Assembly: GCA_036245525.1 (NCBI GenBank)
Contig: BTPG01000004.1
Coordinates: 47,322,823 to 47,386,822, forward strand
Length of the DNA: 64,000 nucleotides
Reading direction: 5' to 3'
Source: Semisulcospira habei
Taxonomy: Eukaryota; Mollusca; Gastropoda; Semisulcospiridae
Part shown: positions 1 to 59,310 of the stretch, piece by piece
Layout of the letters: each line of letters starts with the position of its first letter
Numbering within the stretch: position 1 is the stretch's first letter
The notes under the pieces: generated by a model
The model's database searches: none
What the model saw: only the letters and a program-made list of their open reading frames with translations
Told to the model about the DNA's origin: nothing
Program-made: the position numbers and the translations under genes

Positions 1-80
1 AGGAAGTATGCAAGTGCATTGAGGCCGTCATTGTGCGTTGAGGAAGTATGCAAGTGCATTGAGGCCGTCATTATGTGGTA
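1..80. repeat. 40-bp direct duplication
   Basis: Two adjacent 40-bp copies begin AGGAAGTATGCAAGTGCATT at 1 and 41. The second runs straight into the inverted ribozyme-unit fragment at 79. The array may continue left of the window. Confidence 0.85.
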
Positions 81-149
81 AAAGAGCAAGACCGGTCCCA
101 CCCAGGTATGCATCCGGTCACTTTGGTCTCCCGTGGTAAAAGAGCAAGA
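79..149 (-). repeat. Inverted fragment of the hammerhead unit
   Basis: The reverse complement matches the sequence downstream of the predicted cleavage site in both right-hand units, including the ACCGGATGCATACCTGGGTG block. The ribozyme core itself is absent here. Confidence 0.8.
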
Positions 150-786
150 AAAATATAACACCACACGACCGACAAGCTATAACAAGCAACAAACTACACC
201 GCCTGCGATCCTATTTTTCTGCTGCTTTAACAAGACACGTGTGAGCCAGCTACTCAACCGAGGCCAACAATCGGCCCTGCAGCCCCCCACGGCAAAACCC
301 TCTACTGAAGTGACATCTGTCATGAATCGCTACACGCTATGACGTCATACTGTTTGCTAAAAGACTTAGCTCCCGCCAACGAGAAAGGCAAGCCACCTTG
401 TCCACAACACGGACTAAGAATAGAGGAAACGGACACTGCCTACTTCGCATCGACCACTAAACAACGCAGCACCAACTTTAATCTACAACACCAGGCAACA
501 CTGGTCACAAAGAACTCGTTCTAAAGCGCACAAAAGTGAAAGGAGGACTGAAACGCCGCTTGCAACAAGCGAGGCCAACTATTCTGTGAAGCGGCACTCG
601 AAGAATTGAAGGCCCTTCTACAACGACAAAACGGCCCGGCACTGACCTACCACCAAAACGGTATACAATTCAGGCGGCCCAACAAGCCAACGGCAACAAC
701 AGCAATCAACGAAACAACAGCCACACCAAAACAGCAGCAACAGCTATGATTAAGCTGATTTTAAAGCATCAACTGTGAGATATGCA
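150..786. other. Non-coding body of the composite repeat, left part
   Basis: Short open frames on the plus strand are low complexity and look non-coding. No RNA gene or domain is recognised. Confidence 0.4.
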
Positions 787-858: not shown

Positions 859-3800
859 CAATCTTGACTTCGCGAACGAAGATTCTATAGGGCTTGCCCA
901 CGTCGTCTGCAGGCATTTTCGTGGCTGCGGAGGCCAATCCGGGACAGGCAGGTTCGACCGCAGTGGCTGCAGGGGAAGGTCTGGTCAGGGTTCTGAGTTA
1001 TGACAACTCTGTTTTTTCTTCTAAGCCGCTTGTCCTTAAGGTTAGCTCTGCGAGAGTCCTCAAAGGAGATGGCTGCCTTGTGAATGGTGGAGCGCCAGGT
1101 GTCACGGTCCGCAGCAAGCGAAGACCACTGGCGGTGGTCGATTTGGCAGGCACTAAGCGACTTCTTGAGACCGTCTTTGTATCTCTTCTTTGGTGCCCCT
1201 CTGTCTCGGTGTCCAGTGGCGAGCTCGCCGAACAGAGTGATCTTGGGTAGGCGATGATCCTCCATCCTGGAGACGTGCCCCGCCCAGCGAAGCTGTGTCC
1301 GCAGCAGCAAAGCCTCGATGCTCACAGTTTCTGCCTGTTCAAGGACCTCGACGTTGGTGACATAGTCACTCCAGTGAATGCTGAGGATGGTACGCAGGCA
1401 GCGCTGGTGAAAGCGTTCGAGGAGTCGTAGTTGGCTGCGGTAGAGGGCCCAGGACTCGGAACCGTACAGCAGGGTGGTAAGGACGACAGCTCTGTACACG
1501 CTGATCTTGGTGCCTTTTTTCAGCTGTTGATTGTGCCACACCCGCTTGAATAGTCGTCCGAAAGCACTGTTCGCTTTTGCCAGCCTGTTGTCCAGCTCCT
1601 TGTCCAGCTTGGCGTCTGACGTGATGATGCAGCCAAGGTAGGTAAACTGGTGTACAGACTTCAGTTCGGACTCGCCGATGGTGATGTGGGGAGGGCGATG
1701 CTCTTCCTTGGGTGCCGGCTGATGAAGGACCTCTGTCTTTTTCAGACTGACCTCAAGTCCAAAGAGCTGGGCAGCATCTGCGAAGCAGGACGTAATGCGC
1801 TGCAAGGCTCTCTCTGTGTGTGCAACGAGGGCAGCGTCATCAGCGAAGAGCAGCTCACGAATCAGTTGGTCTAGGGTTTTCGTGTGGGCCTGCAGTCGTC
1901 TGAGGTTGAACAGGCTGCCATCGAGACGATACCTGATGTACACTGCGTCGTCATCGTCGAGGTCCACTGTGGCCTGCTTCAACATCATGCTGAAGAAGAT
2001 GGTGAAGAGGGTCGGTGCCAGCACGCAGCCTTGCTTCACGCCGTTGCGAATGGGGAATGGTTCTGAGAGGTCACTGTTTAGTCTGACCTGGCCTTGCTGG
2101 TCCTCGTGGAGCTGGACGATCATGTTGAGGAACTTTGGGGGACAACCTAGTCGCTCCAGGATCTGCCACATACCTTGCCTGCTCACAGTGTCAAACGCTT
2201 TTGTTAGGTCGACAAACGTTACGTACAGCCCTTTGTTCTGCTCGCGGCACTTCTCCTGAAGCTGTCTCAGCACAAAGACCATGTCGGTGGTACTCCTGTT
2301 GGCTCTGAAGCCACACTGGCCCTCTGGGAGGTGGTCTTCAGCGATGGCAGGTACCAGCCGATTCAGGAGCAACCTTGCGAGAATTTTCCCGGCAATGGAC
2401 AGCAGGGTAATTCCACGATAATTAGAGCAGGCAGACTTCTCTCCTTTGTTCTTGTACAGGGTGATGATGACTGCATCACGGAGATCCTTTGGTAGTGTTC
2501 CTTTTTCCCAGCAGCAGAGAAAGAGGTCGTGGAGCTTGTTGTGCAGTGCTGGGCCTCCATGTTTCCAGATCTCTGGCGGGATTCCGTCAATGCCTGCTGC
2601 TTTGCCACTCTTGAGCTGGTGGATGGCTGTGAGGGTCTCTTCGGCGGTGGGCGGTTCGTCCAATTCAACCTTTAGTGGAAGGCGTGGGATTTGGAGGATG
2701 ACTGTTTCTTGAACAGTGCGTTCAGCGCCGAAGAGGTCCTGAAAGTACTCCGACCAGCGGTTCAAGATGGAGGTATTATCTGTGAGGAGTGCCTGTCCAT
2801 CAGCGCTTCGCAGGGGACTTTGTACCAGGTGCCTAGGGCCATACACTGCTTTCAGTGCTTCGTAGAAGCCCCTGTAGTCACCGTTGTCAGCGCAGAGCTG
2901 GGTCCTCTGTGCGAGTCTGGACCACCACTCGTTCTGGAGCTTTCTAAGCTTGAGCTGGAGTCTGCTGCAGATGAGGCGGAAGGCAGACTTCTTCACAGGG
3001 CAGGAAGGCTGGGCTAGGTGGGCCTGGTGGGCGGCTCTTTTTTTTGCTAGAAGTTCCTGGATCTCTACGTCGTTTTCGTCAAACCAGTCTTTGTTCCTCT
3101 TTCTAGCAAAGCCCAAGACTTCCACAGAGGATTTTACAATAGCAGTTTTCAGTTGTTCCCAGAGTGTTTCAGGGGAGGAATCTGCTGGATCAACTGTGTC
3201 TTTGAGCATGCGCTGTAAATCGGCCTGAAGGGCAGCTTTCTTGTCGTCACGCTGAAGGCTGGCAACATCAAGCTTTTTCTTGGGAGGGCCCCCTTTCTTG
3301 GGTTTCAGCTTGAGGCGGAGCCTGAGTTTGCAGCGAACAAGGCGGTGGTCAGTGTGGCACTCTGCGCTGGGCATCACTCTGGTGAGGAGGACGTCACTGC
3401 GGTCCCTCTGACGCACTAGGACATAGTCGATAAGGTGCCAGTGCTTGGAGCGAGGATGCATCCAGGTGGTCTTTCGACTGTCGTTTTGCTGGAAAGTAGT
3501 GTTGGTGATGACAAGTTGCTGCTCTGCACAGAGCTCCAACAGTAGGCGACCATTGTCATTGCAGTTCCCAACGCCATGCTTGCCGAGGACTCCTTTCCAG
3601 GCTTCAGAGTCTTGGCCCACTCTGGCGTTGAAGTCGCCAAGGATGATGACTTTGTCGTCTGCAGGGGTGCTATGCAGGAGGCTGCGCAGGTCAGAGTAGA
3701 ACTTGTCTTTTTCTGCAGGCTCTGCCAGGAGGGTTGGGGAGTACACACTGAGAAGGGTGACGTATTGCTCAGTGGGAGGCGCATGGACATGATGCGGTCG

Positions 3801-4026
3801 GAGTGACCCGTTGGTAGGTTTTCCAACTTAGTCGCAATGGGGGTCTTCACCATGAAGCCCACGCCTGAGAGCCGTCTTTCTGATGCAGGCCTGCCTGACC
3901 AGTAGAGGGTGTAGCCAGCGCCAAGTTCTTGGAGGCTGCCTTCCTCCGGAAGGCGTACTTCGCTGAGCGCGGCGATGTCGATGTTTAACCTCCGCAATTC
4001 ATGGGCAATGAGGGCGGAGCGACGTT
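859..4026 (-). mobile_element. 5'-truncated LINE, family 1, with 72-bp TSD
   Basis: The element is bounded by perfect 72-bp duplications. Its 3' end lies at 859, and the same terminal sequence starts the copies at 17,312 and 48,741. The 5' end falls within the start of the endonuclease domain, so the 5' UTR and any ORF1 are missing. 5' truncation with a variable-length target duplication is typical of target-primed reverse transcription. Confidence 0.92.
885..4026 (-). pseudogene. LINE family 1 endonuclease-reverse transcriptase
   Basis: The frame runs from the truncated 5' end to about 3,770, where a frameshift moves it into a 953-codon frame ending at 885. In order it shows an APE-type endonuclease (ILGDFNARVGQ; TDHRLV near 3,340), a reverse transcriptase with YRGITLLS, FVDLTKAFDTV and the catalytic FADD at about 1,836-1,847, a conserved C-terminal region (LLYGSESWAL) and a terminal CCHH zinc knuckle (CSHCGRTC...HENAC). 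It would nick and reverse transcribe at the target. Only the N-terminal truncation and one frameshift are obvious, so the copy is young. The clade is not certain; RTE-like or I/Nimb-like are candidates. No host gene is involved. Confidence 0.88.
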
Positions 4027-4098
4027 CCACGGCAACACTGCATACCACCTACGCAGAGGACAATACTAGAAACACTAGTCTGTCGCATGGAAGGCAAC
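4027..4098. repeat. 72-bp target-site duplication, right copy
   Basis: Perfect copy of 787-858. Confidence 0.92.
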
Positions 4099-4374
4099 AC
4101 AGCCACACAAACAACCGGCATCGTCTACAAACACGAATACACGGAGAATCAACAACAACAACGACACGAAGTCTGGGATTGATCCGTCAAAACGGACGGA
4201 TTAATAAACAAAGAACATGACTCCCACGTCTATACACGCAAACTCCGCCCAACGGTTCCTTGCGTCTTATCGCGGCTAAGCCCCGCTGAGCAGGAAATGA
4301 CCTTGGAACTGACAGGCACAAGCGCCGAGGGAACAAAAGACGCGGCGATACAATCGGATCCCGACACAAGACTG

Positions 4375-4545
4375 GACCCTGCAAGGATTTGAAGCGATCA
4401 TACTTGACATCAATAACACCGCATCAGGAATACTGCAAGGATTTGAAAGCGTTCATACTAGACATCAATAACACCGCGTCAGAAATACCAAGGGTTTGAA
4501 AGCGACCATACTGGACATCAATAATGCCGCGTCAGGACTACAGTT
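4375..4545. repeat. Three ~56-bp diverged tandem units
   Basis: CAAGGATTTGAA (or CCAAGGGTTTGAA) followed by a CATCAATAACACCGC block recurs near 4,381, 4,436 and 4,488. It lies inside the composite repeat. Confidence 0.75.
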
Positions 4546-4643
4546 ACATGCAAGGACTACACGGATAACATGTCCTTATGTAAGGAATTAAATGCGACAC
4601 ACTTAGAGGAAGACACCAAGAAATGGACTGCGAATTGTAGGCC

Positions 4644-4756
4644 GGTTCCCTGATGAGTAAATCGGAGCCTGTAGTTACTAACTACGAATACCGATCGAAA
4701 CGCCCCCGAGTGCTTCACATTCTTCTGCGGCTCGGATATTTTGAGGCGTCGGGACC
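4644..4756 (+). ncRNA. Hammerhead ribozyme-like RNA, copy 1
   Basis: The order fits a type I hammerhead. Stem I is GGTTCC 4,644-4,649 with GGGACC 4,751-4,756 (one G-U pair). The core CTGATGA is at 4,650-4,656. Stem II is ATCGG/CCGAT (4,661-4,665 and 4,691-4,695) with inner hairpin GTAGTT/AACTAC. GAAA is at 4,697-4,700. Stem III is ACGCC/GGCGT (4,700-4,704 and 4,745-4,749) plus CCGAG/CTCGG. The predicted cleavage triplet GTC ends at 4,750. A 3-nt bulge between G4657-C4696 and the rest of stem II is a weakness. It would self-cleave between 4,750 and 4,751. Activity is not shown by the sequence. Confidence 0.75.
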
Positions 4757-4973
4757 AGAGTGACCGGATGCATACCTGGGTGGGACCGGTCTTGCTTTTT
4801 TACCACCCACCAGACTTCATGAGACGGAATCCCACGAACGGATAAGGAGAAACACGTAGGTTAACTCCAACATCACGACACTAACAACGCACCCACCAAC
4901 TTAAACGACAACCCTCTACGACATTAACAACGCACCCACCCACTTAAACGACAGCCCTCTACAACAATAGGCC

Positions 4974-5113
4974 GGTTCCCTGACGAGTATATCGGAGCCT
5001 GTAGTCACAGACTACGAATACCGATCGAAACGCCTCCCGAGTGCTTCACATAACACAACGCATGCGACAGCAGCGACCACCAACAACTCGGAGAATAAAC
5101 AGGCGTCGGGACC
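4974..5113 (+). ncRNA. Hammerhead ribozyme-like RNA, copy 2
   Basis: Same fold as copy 1. Stem I is 4,974-4,979 with 5,108-5,113; core CTGACGA 4,980-4,986; stem II 4,991-4,995 with 5,021-5,025; GAAA 5,027-5,030; stem III ACGCCT/AGGCGT (5,030-5,035 and 5,101-5,106); extra helix CCGAGT/ACTCGG (5,037-5,042 and 5,086-5,091). Cleavage is predicted after C5107. Relative to copy 1 the inner stem II pair T-A has become C-G (GTAGTC/GACTAC), a compensatory change, and the sixth stem III pair is restored. The stem III loop is longer and unrelated in sequence. The two cleavage sites are 357 nt apart. Confidence 0.75.
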
Positions 5114-5221
5114 AGAGTGACAGGATGCATACCTGGGTGGGACCGGTCTTGCTTTCTTACCACAAGGGACCAGAGTGACCGGATGCATACCTGGGTGGGA
5201 CCGGTCTTGCTTTTTTACCAC

Positions 5222-5560
5222 GTATGTCAGGTGATAATATAGACATGAGTTCTTAGAATGCTTTGCTTTACTTTGATGTGTGTATCAGTTTTTGTCCTTG
5301 TATACTTTGCGTGAATGAGGTGTGTTAAACAACTGCACTGTTGGTTGGTTGGTTAGTTCAGGGTTTACAACGACCTATACCTAGGCAGTAAAGGATTAAA
5401 AGATTGCAATGATTATCTCCTTTATAAATGTGCTTAGTATGTCTTACAATAATGTTGTAGAAAGGGCTAACCTAACCCATTTTACTGAGGCTAAAAGCTT
5501 CAAATTTGTACACAGCCGTATACAAGCTACATTATAGTACTTACCGCTAAGGATATAGAC
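5222..5560. other. No gene seen
   Basis: AT-rich unique-looking sequence. A GGTTGGTTGGTTAGTTCAGG stretch at about 5,343 resembles the reverse complement of the SINE-B tail but is too short to call. Confidence 0.4.
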
Positions 5561-5561
5561 C

Positions 5562-5655
5562 AATGGCTTTAGTTCAAGGGTGGTGCCAGAATAGCTTGGT
5601 GCCTAGAGACACCAAGCTATTCTGCACTACCCTTGAACTATTTTGGTTGAACTTA
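5562..5655. repeat. Hairpin MITE HP-A
   Basis: Near-perfect palindrome. AGTTCAAGGGTGGTGCCAGA, AGCTTGG and a short loop are followed by the reverse complement. This core, or the AATTCAAGGGTAGTGCCAGA variant, recurs throughout the window. Confidence 0.85.
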
Positions 5656-24168: not shown

Positions 24169-24493
24169 GGTTTGATTTAATTTCATTTGATAATAAGTTT
24201 TGTGCAGTTGACAGTAAAATATTTTGAAAAAGTTAAACATAGCATGTACCACCATTTTCTGTGACGGCCGATAAGCAAAACCAGCAAGAGCCTGATGCAG
24301 TTTGCACTGCCGTGAACCTATGCTGAGTATGAACATCGCGCTATTCTACGCCGCAGAGCCGGGACGGTCGTCGAATCGCGGGCGTTGACAATTTCGATCA
24401 CTGCCGGATGGGTTAAAAGATGGCTTGCCTTTTTCAAATCCGCGCATGCGTAAAGCGATCCGTGCTCCATGGCGGGCTTTCATTGCTAAAATT

Positions 24494-24883
24494 CGCCGCC
24501 GTAACTTGACCACGGGTTATCAATGTTGTCTTGCCTCAACAGGCTAGTGACGTTTTATCGCCGCCGTAACTTGACCACGGGTTATCAATGTTGTCTTGCT
24601 TCAACAGGCTAGTGACGTTTTATCGCCGCCGTAACTTGACCACGGGTTATCAATGTTGTCTTGCCTCAACAGGCTAGTGACGTTTTATCGCCGCCGTAAC
24701 TTGACCACGGGTTATCAATGTTGTCTTGCCTCAACAGGCTAGTGACGTTTTATCGCCGCCGTAACTTGACCACGGGTTATCAATGTTGTCTTGCCTCAAC
24801 AGGCTAGTGACGTTTTATCGCCGCCGTAACTTGACCACGGGTTATCAATGTTGTCTTGCCTCAACAGGCTAGTGACGTTTTAT
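24494..24883. repeat. 65-bp minisatellite, 6 copies
   Basis: CGCCGCCGTAACTTGACCAC starts units at 24,494, 24,559, 24,624, 24,689, 24,754 and 24,819. The copies are almost identical (one C/T difference). A single diverged relative (TATCAATGTTGTCATGCCTC) lies at 43,171. Confidence 0.96.
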
Positions 24884-25016
24884 CCCTTCTTTTTACAATC
24901 CACGTGAGCGGACACACGTCTGTACCAGAGGTTTTCCACTGCGGAACGGAAGGAACTCTCCTGCATACGAACTGACTTGGAGAAGAGCAGACAAGTTTCA
25001 TTTCACGACAATCAAC

Positions 25017-38122: not shown

Positions 38123-38820
38123 AAAGTCGGCAGCATCACGGGGACCAATGAAAAGTCGGCAGCATCACGGGGACCAATGAAAAGTTGGCAGCATCACGGG
38201 GACCAATGAAAAGTTGGCAGCATCACGGGGACCAATGAAAAGTTGGCAGCATCACGGGGACCAATGAAAAGTCGGCAGCATCACGGGGACCAATGAAAAG
38301 TTGGCAGCATCACGGGGACCAATGAAAAGTTGGCAGCATCACGGGGACCAATGAAAAGTTGGCAGCATCACGGGGACCAATGAAAAGTTGGCAGCATCAC
38401 GGGGACCAATGAAAAGTTGGCAGCATCACGGGGACCAATGAAAAGTTGGCAGCATCACGGGGACCAATGAAAAGTCGGCAGCATCACGGGGACCAATGAA
38501 AAGTTGGCAGCATCACGGGGACCAATGAAAAGTTGGCAGCATCACGGGGACCAATGAAAAGTTGGCAGCATCACGGGGACCAATGAAAAGTTGGCAGCAT
38601 CACGGGGACCAATGAAAAGTTGGCAGCATCACGGGGACCAATGAAAAGTTGGCAGCATCACGGGGACCAATGAAAAGTCGGCAGCATCACGGGGACCAAT
38701 GAAAAGTTGGCAGCATCACGGGGACCAATGAAAAGTTGGCAGCATCACGGGGACCAATGAAAAGTCGGCAGCATCACGGGGACCAATGAAAAGTCGGCAG
38801 CATCACGGGGACCAATGAAA
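38123..38820. repeat. 29-bp minisatellite, about 24 copies
   Basis: Unit AAAAGTTGGCAGCATCACGG + GGACCAATG. Copies are identical except for a GTTGG/GTCGG dimorphism scattered along the array. Confidence 0.96.
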
Positions 38821-38939
38821 AGATGTGTTATATCCGACTTTCGTTATTTTGTATCCGACCTTGTTCACACGCGGCTCACTTTTACAAAGACAAACAACGA
38901 CTTTGGCCTGGACTTTCAAAAGCATTGTTATGTTCGACT

Positions 38940-45140: not shown

Positions 45141-45552
45141 TTGACCCTTTCAGCGCCAACACCTTACAGCAGGAGATTGATTGACCATGATAATTCAATG
45201 GTAGTGCCAGATTAGTTTGGCGCCATTAGGTGCCAAGCTAGTCTGGCACTACCCTTGAATTATCTTGGGGGATCTGGGTGGCTCGGTGGTACAGCGTTCG
45301 ACTCTTGTCCAAAAGGTCCTGGGTTCGAACCCAGCTGAGGTCAAAATTCGTACACGGACCTCTTTTCGGTGCCCTGTCTTTGAAATCACCTTCGTGGTGG
45401 ACAAAAGACGTTAAGCCATAAAACGTTTAACGTTGCTTTTTTTTGTTTTATTTTTTAAATTATCATGGTCAATCCATCTCCTGCAAGTGGTACATAGTCG
45501 TTCAGTAACTTCCAAAATTCGGAAAATGCGCGCATGGCGCTAAAAGGGTTAA
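45141..45552. mobile_element. Hairpin MITE HP-A split by a SINE
   Basis: Outer ends TTGACCCTTTCAGCGCCA and TGGCGCTAAAAGGGTTAA are inverted. The right arm is interrupted at AATTATC by SINE-C (45,269-45,457). Confidence 0.9.
45269..45457 (+). mobile_element. SINE-C (tRNA-derived) nested in HP-A
   Basis: Head GGATCTGGGTGGCTCGGTGG with A box TGGCTCGGTGG and B box GGTTCGAACCC (45,322-45,332). The tail region is GTGGACAAAAGACGTTAAGC, then a T-rich end. AATTATCTTGG (45,258-45,268) and AATTATCATGG (45,458-45,468) flank it with one mismatch. Confidence 0.88.
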
Positions 45553-56840: not shown

Positions 56841-56894
56841 ACGTTCATTTTGTGCCGTATATTTGTGCCTAAAGTTTACATCGTGATCATGCAG

Positions 56895-57064
56895 GCGGCT
56901 GTGGCTGAGGTGCTGCTGTATTTCTCGCTGTCCAACACGGGCCCCATGGTGCTGACCACCATACTACTGGGCGCCTACTCGGACGTCATCGGTCGCAAGC
57001 TGCTTTTCCTCCTGCCCACTGTAGCAGGTCTGGGCGAGTTTATCGTCACCGCCATTATCGTCAG
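56895..57064 (+). CDS. SLC46-like MFS transporter, exon 3 (TM2-TM3)
   Basis: Acceptor GATCATGCAG, phase 0. Reads AAVAEVLLYFSLSNTGPMVL, then TTILLGAYSDVIGRKLLFLL and a third helix (PTVAGLGEFIVTAIIV). GAYSDVIGRK is the MFS signature motif A between TM2 and TM3. Donor CAG|GTGGGC, phase 2. Confidence 0.88.
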
Positions 57065-57183
57065 GTGGGCATACACGTCTGTAGTTATTGTATGCTCAGC
57101 AGCCTGGTGCAGACATTCTGTGCACCGATTAACAGTGACTGCTGATGATTCTGTTGTAGTTTTGCTGTGGTGCCTAGAATGTA

Positions 57184-57193
57184 TGTGTGTGCG

Positions 57194-57275
<82 letters not shown>
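57184..57275. repeat. (GT)n microsatellite
   Basis: About 45 GT units in intron 3. Confidence 0.96.
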
Positions 57276-57278
<3 letters not shown>

Positions 57279-57355
57279 CTGTGTACAGTTTTGTAATTGT
57301 ATTTTTGAAATTTGTAAGGCGCCTAGAGCTCTACCTGAGGTTAAGCCCCATAGAA

Positions 57356-57356
<1 letters not shown>

Positions 57357-57416
<60 letters not shown>
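57357..57416. repeat. (ATT)n microsatellite
   Basis: About 20 ATT units. Confidence 0.96.
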
Positions 57417-57432
57417 GACAGGGCATTCCCAT

Positions 57433-57477
57433 TGCGGAAAAGGATCGACGTCGGCCCGATGGCCTTTGCGCACTGGG
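57433..57477. repeat. HP-C right-arm fragment
   Basis: GACGTCGGCCCGATGGCCTT + TGCGCACTGGG; left arm reduced to GGAAAAGGATC. Confidence 0.75.
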
Positions 57478-57637
57478 TTTTTAACGTGCGTGCTGATCAC
57501 AAGCTGGAACCAAGTGTACACCAGTTTCACCTTCTGCGAGTGTTGGAGGATTTCAGCGGGTTCCAGTGCACCCATCGTTCGTTCACTCACTGTCACTGAA
57601 TCACTCGCTTAAAAAATTGTACTGTTTTCACTGACAG

Positions 57638-57825
57638 ACTTGAGCTGAGCCTGGACTACTTCTACGTGATACAAGTGGTGGAGGGCTTCAGCGGGTCGTT
57701 CTCTACCCTCCTGCTGGCCACGTTTTCCTACACAGCCGATCTAACACCCCCCGCCAAGGCTCGCACCTTCGCCATCACCATCTTAGAGTGCTGCTTAGCT
57801 CTGGCAGGGGCCGGGTCCAGCATCG
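57638..57825 (+). CDS. SLC46-like MFS transporter, exon 4 (TM4-TM5)
   Basis: Acceptor TTTTCACTGACAG. Phase 2 completes an arginine. Reads LELSLDYFYVIQVVEGFSGS, then FSTLLLATFSYTADLTPPAK and ARTFAITILECCLALAGAGS. The FS(Y)xAD..xxxxR element is typical of the TM4-TM5 loop in this family. Donor ATCG|GTAATG, phase 1. Confidence 0.88.
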
Positions 57826-57887
57826 GTAATGCTCTTCATGCTGTTAGTGGTTGTGATTGTGGTGGTGGTGGTGGTACAGCTCCTAGT

Positions 57888-58045
57888 ATTAACACTTTCA
57901 GCCCGGCGCACGTATTTCCCAAATTTTGGAGGCGTCATCTAACGACTATGCGCCTGTTGCACGGCGCCAAGCTAATCTGGCACTACCCTTGAATTATCAT
58001 GGTCGACCCATCTCCTGCTGTAGTGCGTCAGGGCCGAATGGGTTA
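57888..58045. repeat. Hairpin MITE HP-A, left arm deleted
   Basis: TTAACACTTTCAGCCCGGCG...CTGTTGCA joins directly to GGCGCCAAGCTAATCTGGCA. Only the right inner arm remains. Confidence 0.85.
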
Positions 58046-58137
58046 AGTGAGTCAAGTTTTTCAACGGCGACAGTGTCTAAGAAGACAAACCGCACTATCG
58101 CTTTGTAACTACAGAAGCAAAATCGCAGCGGGTACCA

Positions 58138-58231
58138 TAAGCATAGACAACACTCCAAACAGCTCCGTCCACGAGGCTTAGATCCTTTTGTGCCTCTTGT
58201 AGATGTTTCTAATGTTGTCTATGCTTGTGTA
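58138..58231. repeat. Hairpin HP-E
   Basis: CATAAGCATAGACAACACTC...AATGTTGTCTATGCTTGTG. Confidence 0.75.
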
Positions 58232-58271
58232 CAACATGCCAAGCGTTTTTCGTCGTTATTCCACTCATAGC

Positions 58272-58441
58272 GGTCCGTGGATAGTAGCTTTGACTAATGC
58301 AAATCCACCACGCCATCGCGTGCGCGCAAGCGCCCATACTAAGCTCAAGACTAAGTATTTAGTCTTGAGCTTAGTATAGGCGCTTGCGCGCACGCCGTGG
58401 CGCATTGGATTTGCACTTAGTCAAAGCTACTACCACGGACC
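58272..58441. repeat. 170-bp inverted repeat in intron 4
   Basis: Arms of about 78 bp: GGTCCGTGGATAGTAGCTTT...TACTAAGCTCAAGACTAA and TTAGTCTTGAGCTTAGTATA...AAAGCTACTACCACGGACC, nearly perfect with a TAAATACTTAG-like centre. Single copy in this window. Confidence 0.95.
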
Positions 58442-58528
58442 CCTATGATTCCACTGTAGTTGCTCATTTGATAATTTACATGTGCAGTATTTATGTGCGT
58501 ATCCGTTGATACTGTTTTCTGCTCCAAG

Positions 58529-58887
58529 GCGTTGGCTATCTGATCCTGTATGTGAGTTATTTTTATGCTGCCATCTTGCTGGCCATCTGCATGGCTCTGG
58601 CAGTCGCCATCGTTATTTTCGCCATGCCGGAAACCATCCAACGCCAGCACCAGCATGTCAGCAACCAACCAACCAGACAGCTAATCTGCCATCAGCCACC
58701 GAGCCGCAACCCCTTGAAATACGTCAAAAATATTTTCTCTTTTTACTTTACTGGGTCGCCGCGGAGGCGCTTTCAGTTTCTGCTGGCCCTGACGGTCTTG
58801 TTTCTCATATTGCTGTGTTTCCTTGGGCGTAACGGCGTGGAAACTTTGTACCAGCTGAATGCGCCCTTCTGCTTCAACTCAGCTGAG
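58529..58887 (+). CDS. SLC46-like MFS transporter, exon 5 (TM6, central loop, TM7)
   Basis: Acceptor TTCTGCTCCAAG, phase 1. Reads VGYLILYVSYFYAAILLAIC and ALAVAIVIFAMPETIQRQ, where the sixth helix ends in the family-typical (L/M)PET. A hydrophilic central loop of about 45 residues follows (QHVSNQPTRQ...NPLKYVKNIFSFYF), then the start of the second half (RFQFLLALTVLFLILLCFLG) and an ETLYQLNAPFCFNSAE segment. Donor GAG|GTAAAA, phase 0. Confidence 0.88.
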
Positions 58888-58899
58888 GTAAAATATGAA

Positions 58900-59310
58900 G
58901 AAAGGTAGAAAAACTGACTGTATCTGGCTGTTTATCATATAAATGATGCCATTATAAAGTGAGAAAATGTTGGCCATTTGTTCCAGTTCAGTCAAAATCA
59001 CAAGGTCGGTATGGTATGAAATAAGGGCAGTGTTCGACTAGAAGCGGTGAGGTGATGTTCCAAGTTTGTACGTTTGACCCAATCTATTTCACACAATCAG
59101 CTGAGAGGACTGACTTTCACATACAAAGATACTGAAGATGGATTTTTATGTCAGAGTTGAGTCCAGATGCTACTAGGAACACGACCGATCCATTGTCCCA
59201 TGCATTTTTTGTAGAAAATGCCATTTGTTTCAGCCATCTGTCTCTCAGACACCCCCCACCCCTCCACACACACACACACACACAACCATTTTACAGAACA
59301 CATTCAAAAT
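58900..59310. other. Intron 5, no feature
   Basis: Nothing recognised except a short (CA)n run at 59,268-59,283. Confidence 0.4.

Follow-up and report, generated by a model that had tools for sequence, protein, structure and literature searches.

Two hammerhead motifs at one locus

Two hammerhead ribozyme (HHR) motifs with predicted cuts 357 nt apart on the forward strand of a 64-kb stretch of the Semisulcospira habei genome (64,000 nucleotides, hereafter the window) raise the question of whether they delimit one small self-cleaving unit or belong to different mobile elements. The original prediction, made from the letters alone, placed both in a single non-coding repeat whose dimer transcript would release a unit-length RNA of 357 nt.

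Both motifs were found on the + strand in the order and at the positions first proposed, and they are confirmed as genuine. HHR1 spans 4638-4750 and comprises the 5' strand of stem I (4644-4649), the core CTGATGA (4650-4656), G10.1 (4657), a bulge (4658-4660), stem II (4661-4665/4691-4695), C11.1 (4696), GAA (4697-4699), stem III (4700-4704/4745-4749) and C17 at 4750. HHR2 spans 4968-5107 and repeats this arrangement with the stem I 5' strand at 4974-4979, the core CTGACGA at 4980-4986, G10.1 at 4987, the bulge at 4988-4990, stem II at 4991-4995/5021-5025, C11.1 at 5026, GAA at 5027-5029, stem III at 5030-5035/5101-5106 and C17 at 5107. Stem I is formed by the 6 bp of GGUUCC/GGGACC; stem II consists of a G-C pair, a 3-nt bulge (TAA / TAT) and ATCGG/CCGAT; and stem III has 5 or 6 bp followed by an inner CCGAG/CTCGG helix. 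The stem II segment is 40 nt long in both motifs and the stem III segment 50 and 77 nt, and the core CUGANGA ... GAA(A) ... UH with its three helices in the correct order conforms to the type I layout.

A descriptor combining CTGANGA, a stem II of >=4 bp with a one-sided bulge of <=4, GAAA, a stem III of >=4 bp ending in UH and a stem I of >=4 bp matched only HHR1 and HHR2 in the 64 kb, both strands included, and a mean of 0.0 sites was returned from 60 Markov-random windows, with the qualification that the descriptor allows the stem II bulge and was composed after the finding had been seen. The Rfam hammerhead models gave no match at E <= 10 in the 1-kb stretch 4400-5400, presumably because G10.1 is followed by a 3-nt bulge and the stem-loops are long; a bulge adjoining the HHR core in this manner is unusual. 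The covariance-model hit that the original prediction had looked for was thus lacking, but the loss of core conservation that it had named alongside as counting against the motifs was not observed, the core being kept between subfamilies (see below). Minimum-energy folding does not choose the HHR structure: forcing it costs 5.0 / 4.6 kcal/mol for the ribozymes alone, and with the tail included the HHR fold lies 9-11 kcal/mol above the ensemble in families A and B.

Two elements with a common ribozyme and tail

The notion of a single non-coding repeat did not hold, as HHR2 forms the 3' end of a protein-coding Penelope-like element, termed A, with a reverse transcriptase (RT) lacking a GIY-YIG domain, and HHR1 forms the 3' end of a related non-coding element, termed B. 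Both HHRs lie directly 5' of a common 56-nt tail, most A and B copies terminate at its ...TACCAC, and the last tail base was reached in 52 of the 56 loci of one set.

In loci of 10 kb, A is made up, in this order, of a 5' region containing short repeats, a 671-codon open frame (669 codons from its ATG) with an RT core including YRDD, 604 nt, a further 161 nt (window 4807-4967), HHR2 and the tail. Canonical Penelope-like members carry a GIY-YIG endonuclease, and some members are without it, Athena and Coprina being names of such endonuclease-less elements. The product of the A frame, which had no Pfam match at E <= 1e-3, we take to be a Penelope-like RT by recognition and not by any tool, its RT core being aligned with GIY-YIG-bearing relatives. 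The frame ends where the RT block ends, and no GIY-YIG endonuclease was found in it. Altogether 165 relatives of the protein were retrieved (best E 8.9e-239), including named bivalve proteins (Pinctada, Saccostrea, Mytilus), which on their own would point to a probable molluscan host; the 22 best measure 612-678 aa, and among the 120 listed of the 165 the GIY-YIG label is absent from the best 60 (P0002-P0061) and first appears at P0062. A search with the protein in genome contigs and one with the alignment in viral contigs confirmed none; the tail 21-mer had 0 matches in viral contigs, and the 51 exact matches of a 16-mer there are probably due to chance.

Within the snail's own 1.98-Gb assembly, 26 of 66 scored matches to the A protein (counted by hand, from 3,851 first-look candidates) cover the protein completely or almost completely and contain no stop, an indication of recent activity; A and B are two related, recently active mobile elements. 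The 40 best-scored genomic matches to window 4807-5221 (1,373 first-look candidates) are 97-100% identical, and these copies share the tail end and differ in their 3' flanks. Upstream of 4807 the element continues in all 21 other A copies printed, many of them into the RT frame. The A copy in the window is therefore a 5'-truncated remnant of 415 nt that begins at the end of a B tail: its 3' untranslated part occupies 4807-4967, its tail 5108-5163 after the predicted cut 5107^5108, and an AA spacer (5164-5165) leads to an extra tail (5166-5221) that is B-type at a diagnostic C and begins exactly one base past the cut site. A near-perfect inverted repeat of MITE-like appearance lies 3' of the element end, at 5570-5640. 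No target-site duplication was seen: from 22 loci, 13 bounded intervals were printed, not all of them clean whole insertions, and the longest shared word was <=5 in 12 of the 13 (random mean 4.7, 95% 6), the thirteenth (16 nt, L066) being an interval that belongs to another repeat.

The longest B copy seen measures 2,653 nt, and its longest same-strand open frame, of 167 codons, has no Pfam match. B is 71% alike to A in part of the 5' region, 75% over HHR1 plus tail with the length difference included, and 98% in the tail; 40 B matches, the window included, score 98-100% (1,269 first-look candidates). In the window, B occupies 151-858 and 4099-4806 on the + strand. The left part of its interior (151-858) matches that of other B copies at 92-94% identity, the right part (4099-4637) contains 53-nt repeats at 4379-4541, and after HHR1 the tail follows at 4751-4806, with 4751-4756 serving as the stem I 3' strand and the predicted cut at 4750^4751. 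The two parts are separated by an unrelated 5'-truncated LINE on the - strand (859-4026; Pfam RVT_1 and Exo_endo_phos_2 in 888-3827), which encodes an endonuclease and reverse transcriptase frame and is flanked by an exact 72-nt direct repeat (787-858 / 4027-4098). The LINE is missing from other B copies crossing the same point (L060, C6, C8, L078, L080), and from this absence it can be deduced that the LINE is a nested, later insertion. It had been considered as the autonomous partner, a tail copy lying beyond its 3' side, and was rejected on the ground that other B copies lack it. The 72-nt repeat looks like a target-site duplication, though an unusually long one. An inverted tail on the - strand (75-150) borders the B fragment on the left and consists of a partial tail (150-133), a GG spacer (132-131) and a tail (130-75) whose start departs from G1.1 by substitutions.

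Elsewhere in the window, long near-perfect minisatellites are present at 24493-24884 (65-nt unit x6) and 38123-38822 (29-nt unit x24), a tRNA-like match on the + strand at 45272-45342 (30.7 bits, gathering 29) is possibly a tRNA-derived SINE, and exon-like open frames on the + strand at 56841-58908 appear membrane-transporter-like by eye.

Constraint on the ribozyme

The view that this is retroelement DNA with a structure under constraint was borne out by comparison among copies. Among about 24 A copies, picked by their similarity to the window, HHR2 has 0.0015 differences per cell, next to 0.0017 in the tail, 0.0049 in the body, 0.0081 in the post region and 0.0056 in the open frame (depth 14). 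In six aligned sequences of A, B and a third subfamily, A2 (L150, L153, L154), the core bases are invariant save N7, which is a free position in hammerheads. With loop III (columns 82-117) excluded as not alignable, variable columns amount to 3 of 68 in core and stems vs 9 of 48 in free positions (Fisher p 0.026). A2 differs from A by about 3.6% in the HHR and by 10-11% in the body, that is 5/139 (HHR) vs 25/276 (body plus post), p 0.045. Single core changes are present in individual copies, including those of family B, as expected from the decay of dead copies after insertion.

The pair changes between the two motifs were as originally described, an inner stem II pair being T-A in HHR1 and C-G in HHR2 and the sixth stem III position C.A and T-A, respectively. 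Their reading as covariation is weak: A2 has a T.C mismatch at the supposedly covarying pair, and the one pair with a double change was equalled in 92 of 500 shuffles and hence does not exceed them. Covariation was accordingly discarded as proof of the structure.

Tail-tail junctions at the predicted cleavage site

Extra tails of the kind seen at 5166-5221 were present at 17 of 25 A ends and 0 of 7 B ends in a first set and at 0 of 17 A ends and 1 of 39 B ends in a further set (pooled, 17/42 vs 1/46). The first A set was biased because its query held two tails, and the whole assembly was therefore searched with a tail-tail pattern. TACCACN{0,30}GGATGCATACCTGGGTGG recovered 101 tail-tail junctions and the reversed control pattern 0, and a control with the same 31-position span placed inside the HHR (TACCACN{0,30}ACTACGAATACCGATCGAAACG) recovered 2 places, the 101 and the 2 being raw counts that are not normalised to anchor copy number.

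Per-junction counts refer to the 100 of the 101 junctions that were listed. The second tail is complete from G1.1 with <=1 mismatch in 93 of them; of these, one starts within the ribozyme, 13 nt upstream, and another carries an insert of 14 nt, so that in 91 of the 100 the second tail begins exactly one base past the predicted cut after a spacer of 1-6 nt. Among the remaining 7, five start inside the tail (base 3 x1, base 7 x3, base 9 x1); in the other two, L062 and the inverted copy within the window itself, the start is altered. The 91 exact junctions have 22 different short spacers. CAA (26), AA (17) and CA (10) are the commonest among the 100, and a small number of events may have given rise, by copying, to many of the junctions. 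The second tail is B-like in 63 of the 93, also on A elements, from which it follows that A and B templates both seem to have been used within one event. In B copy L077, itself without the first 20 bases of HHR1, 5 extra bases lie exactly between C17 and G1.1.

Had the RT been halted by stem I, the stop would be expected at the 3' edge of that stem, about 6 nt before G1.1, and run-off of the RT at a 5' end made by the HHR fits the junctions best. Judged from these genomic junctions, the pattern suggests, as indirect evidence, in vivo cleavage at the predicted cuts.

Joins between units and a proposed mechanism

The units form chains in which the tail of one runs directly into the 5' start of the following one. 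A B tail is joined to A at window 4806|4807, at L080 6711 and at L060 3601, and an A tail to B in C6, C8, L078, L060, L061 and L067; joins of like with like occur for A in L079 and for B in C6 and L078, and inverted joins in L060, L062, C6 and window 75-150. Element pieces joined in inverted orientation, as in twin priming, were noted at L060 919, L062 3014, L074 7878-7936 and window 75-150. Unit starts are recurrent at B 825-834, at A about 645 and exactly at the ATG of the open frame (L080, L142), and these may be RNA 5' ends. The B start TGATCTGAAGG is preceded by a tail in 13 of 13 rows found, at 9 distinct places. Recurrent unit starts were noted at L088, L089, L092, L103, L105, L125, L131 and L146, at L138-L140 and L143, and at L080 and L142, several of them sitting behind a tail with varying spacers.

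In the reading that we prefer, with a probability of roughly 0.78, the locus is where the 3' ends of two related mobile elements, served by the same machinery, have been joined, with run-off at HHR-made cuts. The A RT would start internally at the tail end on A or B RNA. On a template uncut at the hammerhead it would copy through the HHR into the unit; on a template already cut it would meet the ribozyme-made 5' end after 56 nt and run off, add a few bases and jump to the tail of another RNA, the outcome being additional 56-nt tails whose starts coincide with the cut site. Both events would be on display in the window: the B tail followed by a truncated A, and the B-type tail added after A. 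The timing of cleavage could be governed by the tail itself. GGCCGGUUCC is predicted to pair with UGGGACCGGU near the tail end at -15.6 kcal/mol vs -7.5 for stem I, and this rival pairing of the stem I strand with the distal tail could keep the ribozyme inactive until the tail is bound by the RT, an event that may in turn release stem I; such an alternative pairing predicts faster cutting when the distal tail GGGACCGGU is removed.

A more specific proposition, to which we give even odds, is that the HHR is a working part of the life cycle of an endonuclease-less Penelope-like element, its cut fixing the 5' end from which the RT runs off before jumping between RNAs, and that B is copied by the A enzyme by virtue of the same ribozyme and tail, giving mixed A/B chains at insertion.

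Alternative explanations

The spacing of 357 nt between the cuts 4750^4751 and 5107^5108 invites comparison with the small retrozymes of metazoans: a non-coding unit of 357 nt, present as a dimer, would free a 357-nt RNA that then becomes circular, and mussel retrozymes indeed lie in repeats of about 350-390 bp and carry type I HHRs, according to PMC7229834. We give this reading next to no credence, since the supposed units are unlike each other outside the HHR and tail, the second is a Penelope-like element truncated at 4807 that extends upstream in the 21 other printed copies, and tandem cuts elsewhere lie much farther apart. In the A-A tandem L079, an arrangement that gives pseudo-LTRs with an HHR, they are 3,641 nt apart, and in the B-B tandem of C6 1,743 nt; the former is a single example that defines no fixed unit, longer A copies being present in L060, L080 and L082. 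The spacing in the window arises because a 5'-truncated A abuts the B tail, and the retrozyme-dimer look is the coincidence of one truncated insertion, so that the release of a unit-length RNA falls away with it.

The main competitor of run-off is a start of transcription at G1.1; the HHRs would then be inactive relics, and this base a transcript start, or a host nuclease cut site, unrelated to self-cleavage. GGG is a plausible start and would leave the same footprint, the other recurrent starts (B 825-834, A about 645, the ATG) also resemble RNA 5' ends, and the HHR is not the predicted minimum fold. We nevertheless hold this explanation to be unlikely, as the start matches the predicted cut to the base in the tails of both families, among the non-coding parts compared, ribozyme and tail show the strongest conservation, and the differences spare the catalytic core. 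Duplication at the DNA level, by unequal exchange of one ancestral tail pair, would account for the dominance of a few spacers, yet it appears highly improbable in view of the 22 different short spacers at one boundary, the B-type tails attached to A elements and the inverted cases.

Relation to known elements and significance

HHRs in the terminal repeats of Penelope-like elements have been on record since 2014 (Cervera and De la Pena, cited in PMC11167929). The closest likeness is to such HHR-bearing elements and, within them, to the Anolis element Poseidon PAc, described in PMC11167929: tandem and partial-tandem copies occur, the HHR lies near the tail where reverse transcription starts, insertions end at the tail, and the start site is AC-rich. 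The kind of RT is the same by our recognition. For the Anolis element, PMC11167929 describes that internal RT initiation was shown in vitro, that its HHR cuts only with the protein present, that insertion in vitro was unaffected by HHR mutants and that no reads were found at the HHR cut site. The elements described here differ from HHR-bearing Penelope-like elements in that the A frame is without GIY-YIG, stem II of the HHR is bulged and its stem-loop III long, extra tails start from the cut site, and a separate non-coding partner family exists.

With Terminons (PMC6431247) and the Athena and Coprina elements, the absence of an endonuclease domain, an HHR near the 3' end and tandem arrays are held in common. 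In contrast to Terminons, one clear open frame and no giant multi-ORF structure was seen here, and none of 52 tails had two TTAGGG/CCCTAA units, the telomeric repeat sought, within 100 nt 3'. Metazoan type I retrozymes resemble B in being non-coding, hammerhead-bearing and tandem, and presumably moved by the RT of another element, Penelope-like elements having been proposed as a strong helper candidate (PMC7229834). B departs from them in length, reaching 2,653 nt as against about 170-400 nt, and in having its tail and HHR in common with a visible helper, A.

Overall, the locus contains an element of a familiar kind whose layout is new and whose genomic cleavage footprint is unusual. Two features look new, the run-off footprint and the non-coding partner; a literature search covering titles and the starts of abstracts, with subscription papers mostly outside its coverage, found none on run-off at hammerhead cuts in Penelope-like elements. 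For the matter of HHR cutting in vivo and of HHR retention in Penelope-like elements, the DNA here appears to hold a record, in about 100 junctions, the majority of which lie at the predicted cut. The coding and non-coding pair with a common ribozyme and tail likewise offers a concrete case for Penelope-like enzymes moving hammerhead-bearing RNAs, as proposed in PMC7229834. If the proposed reading is true, this genome would constitute a direct record of in vivo ribozyme cleavage and of the mobilisation of a ribozyme-bearing RNA by a Penelope-like enzyme.
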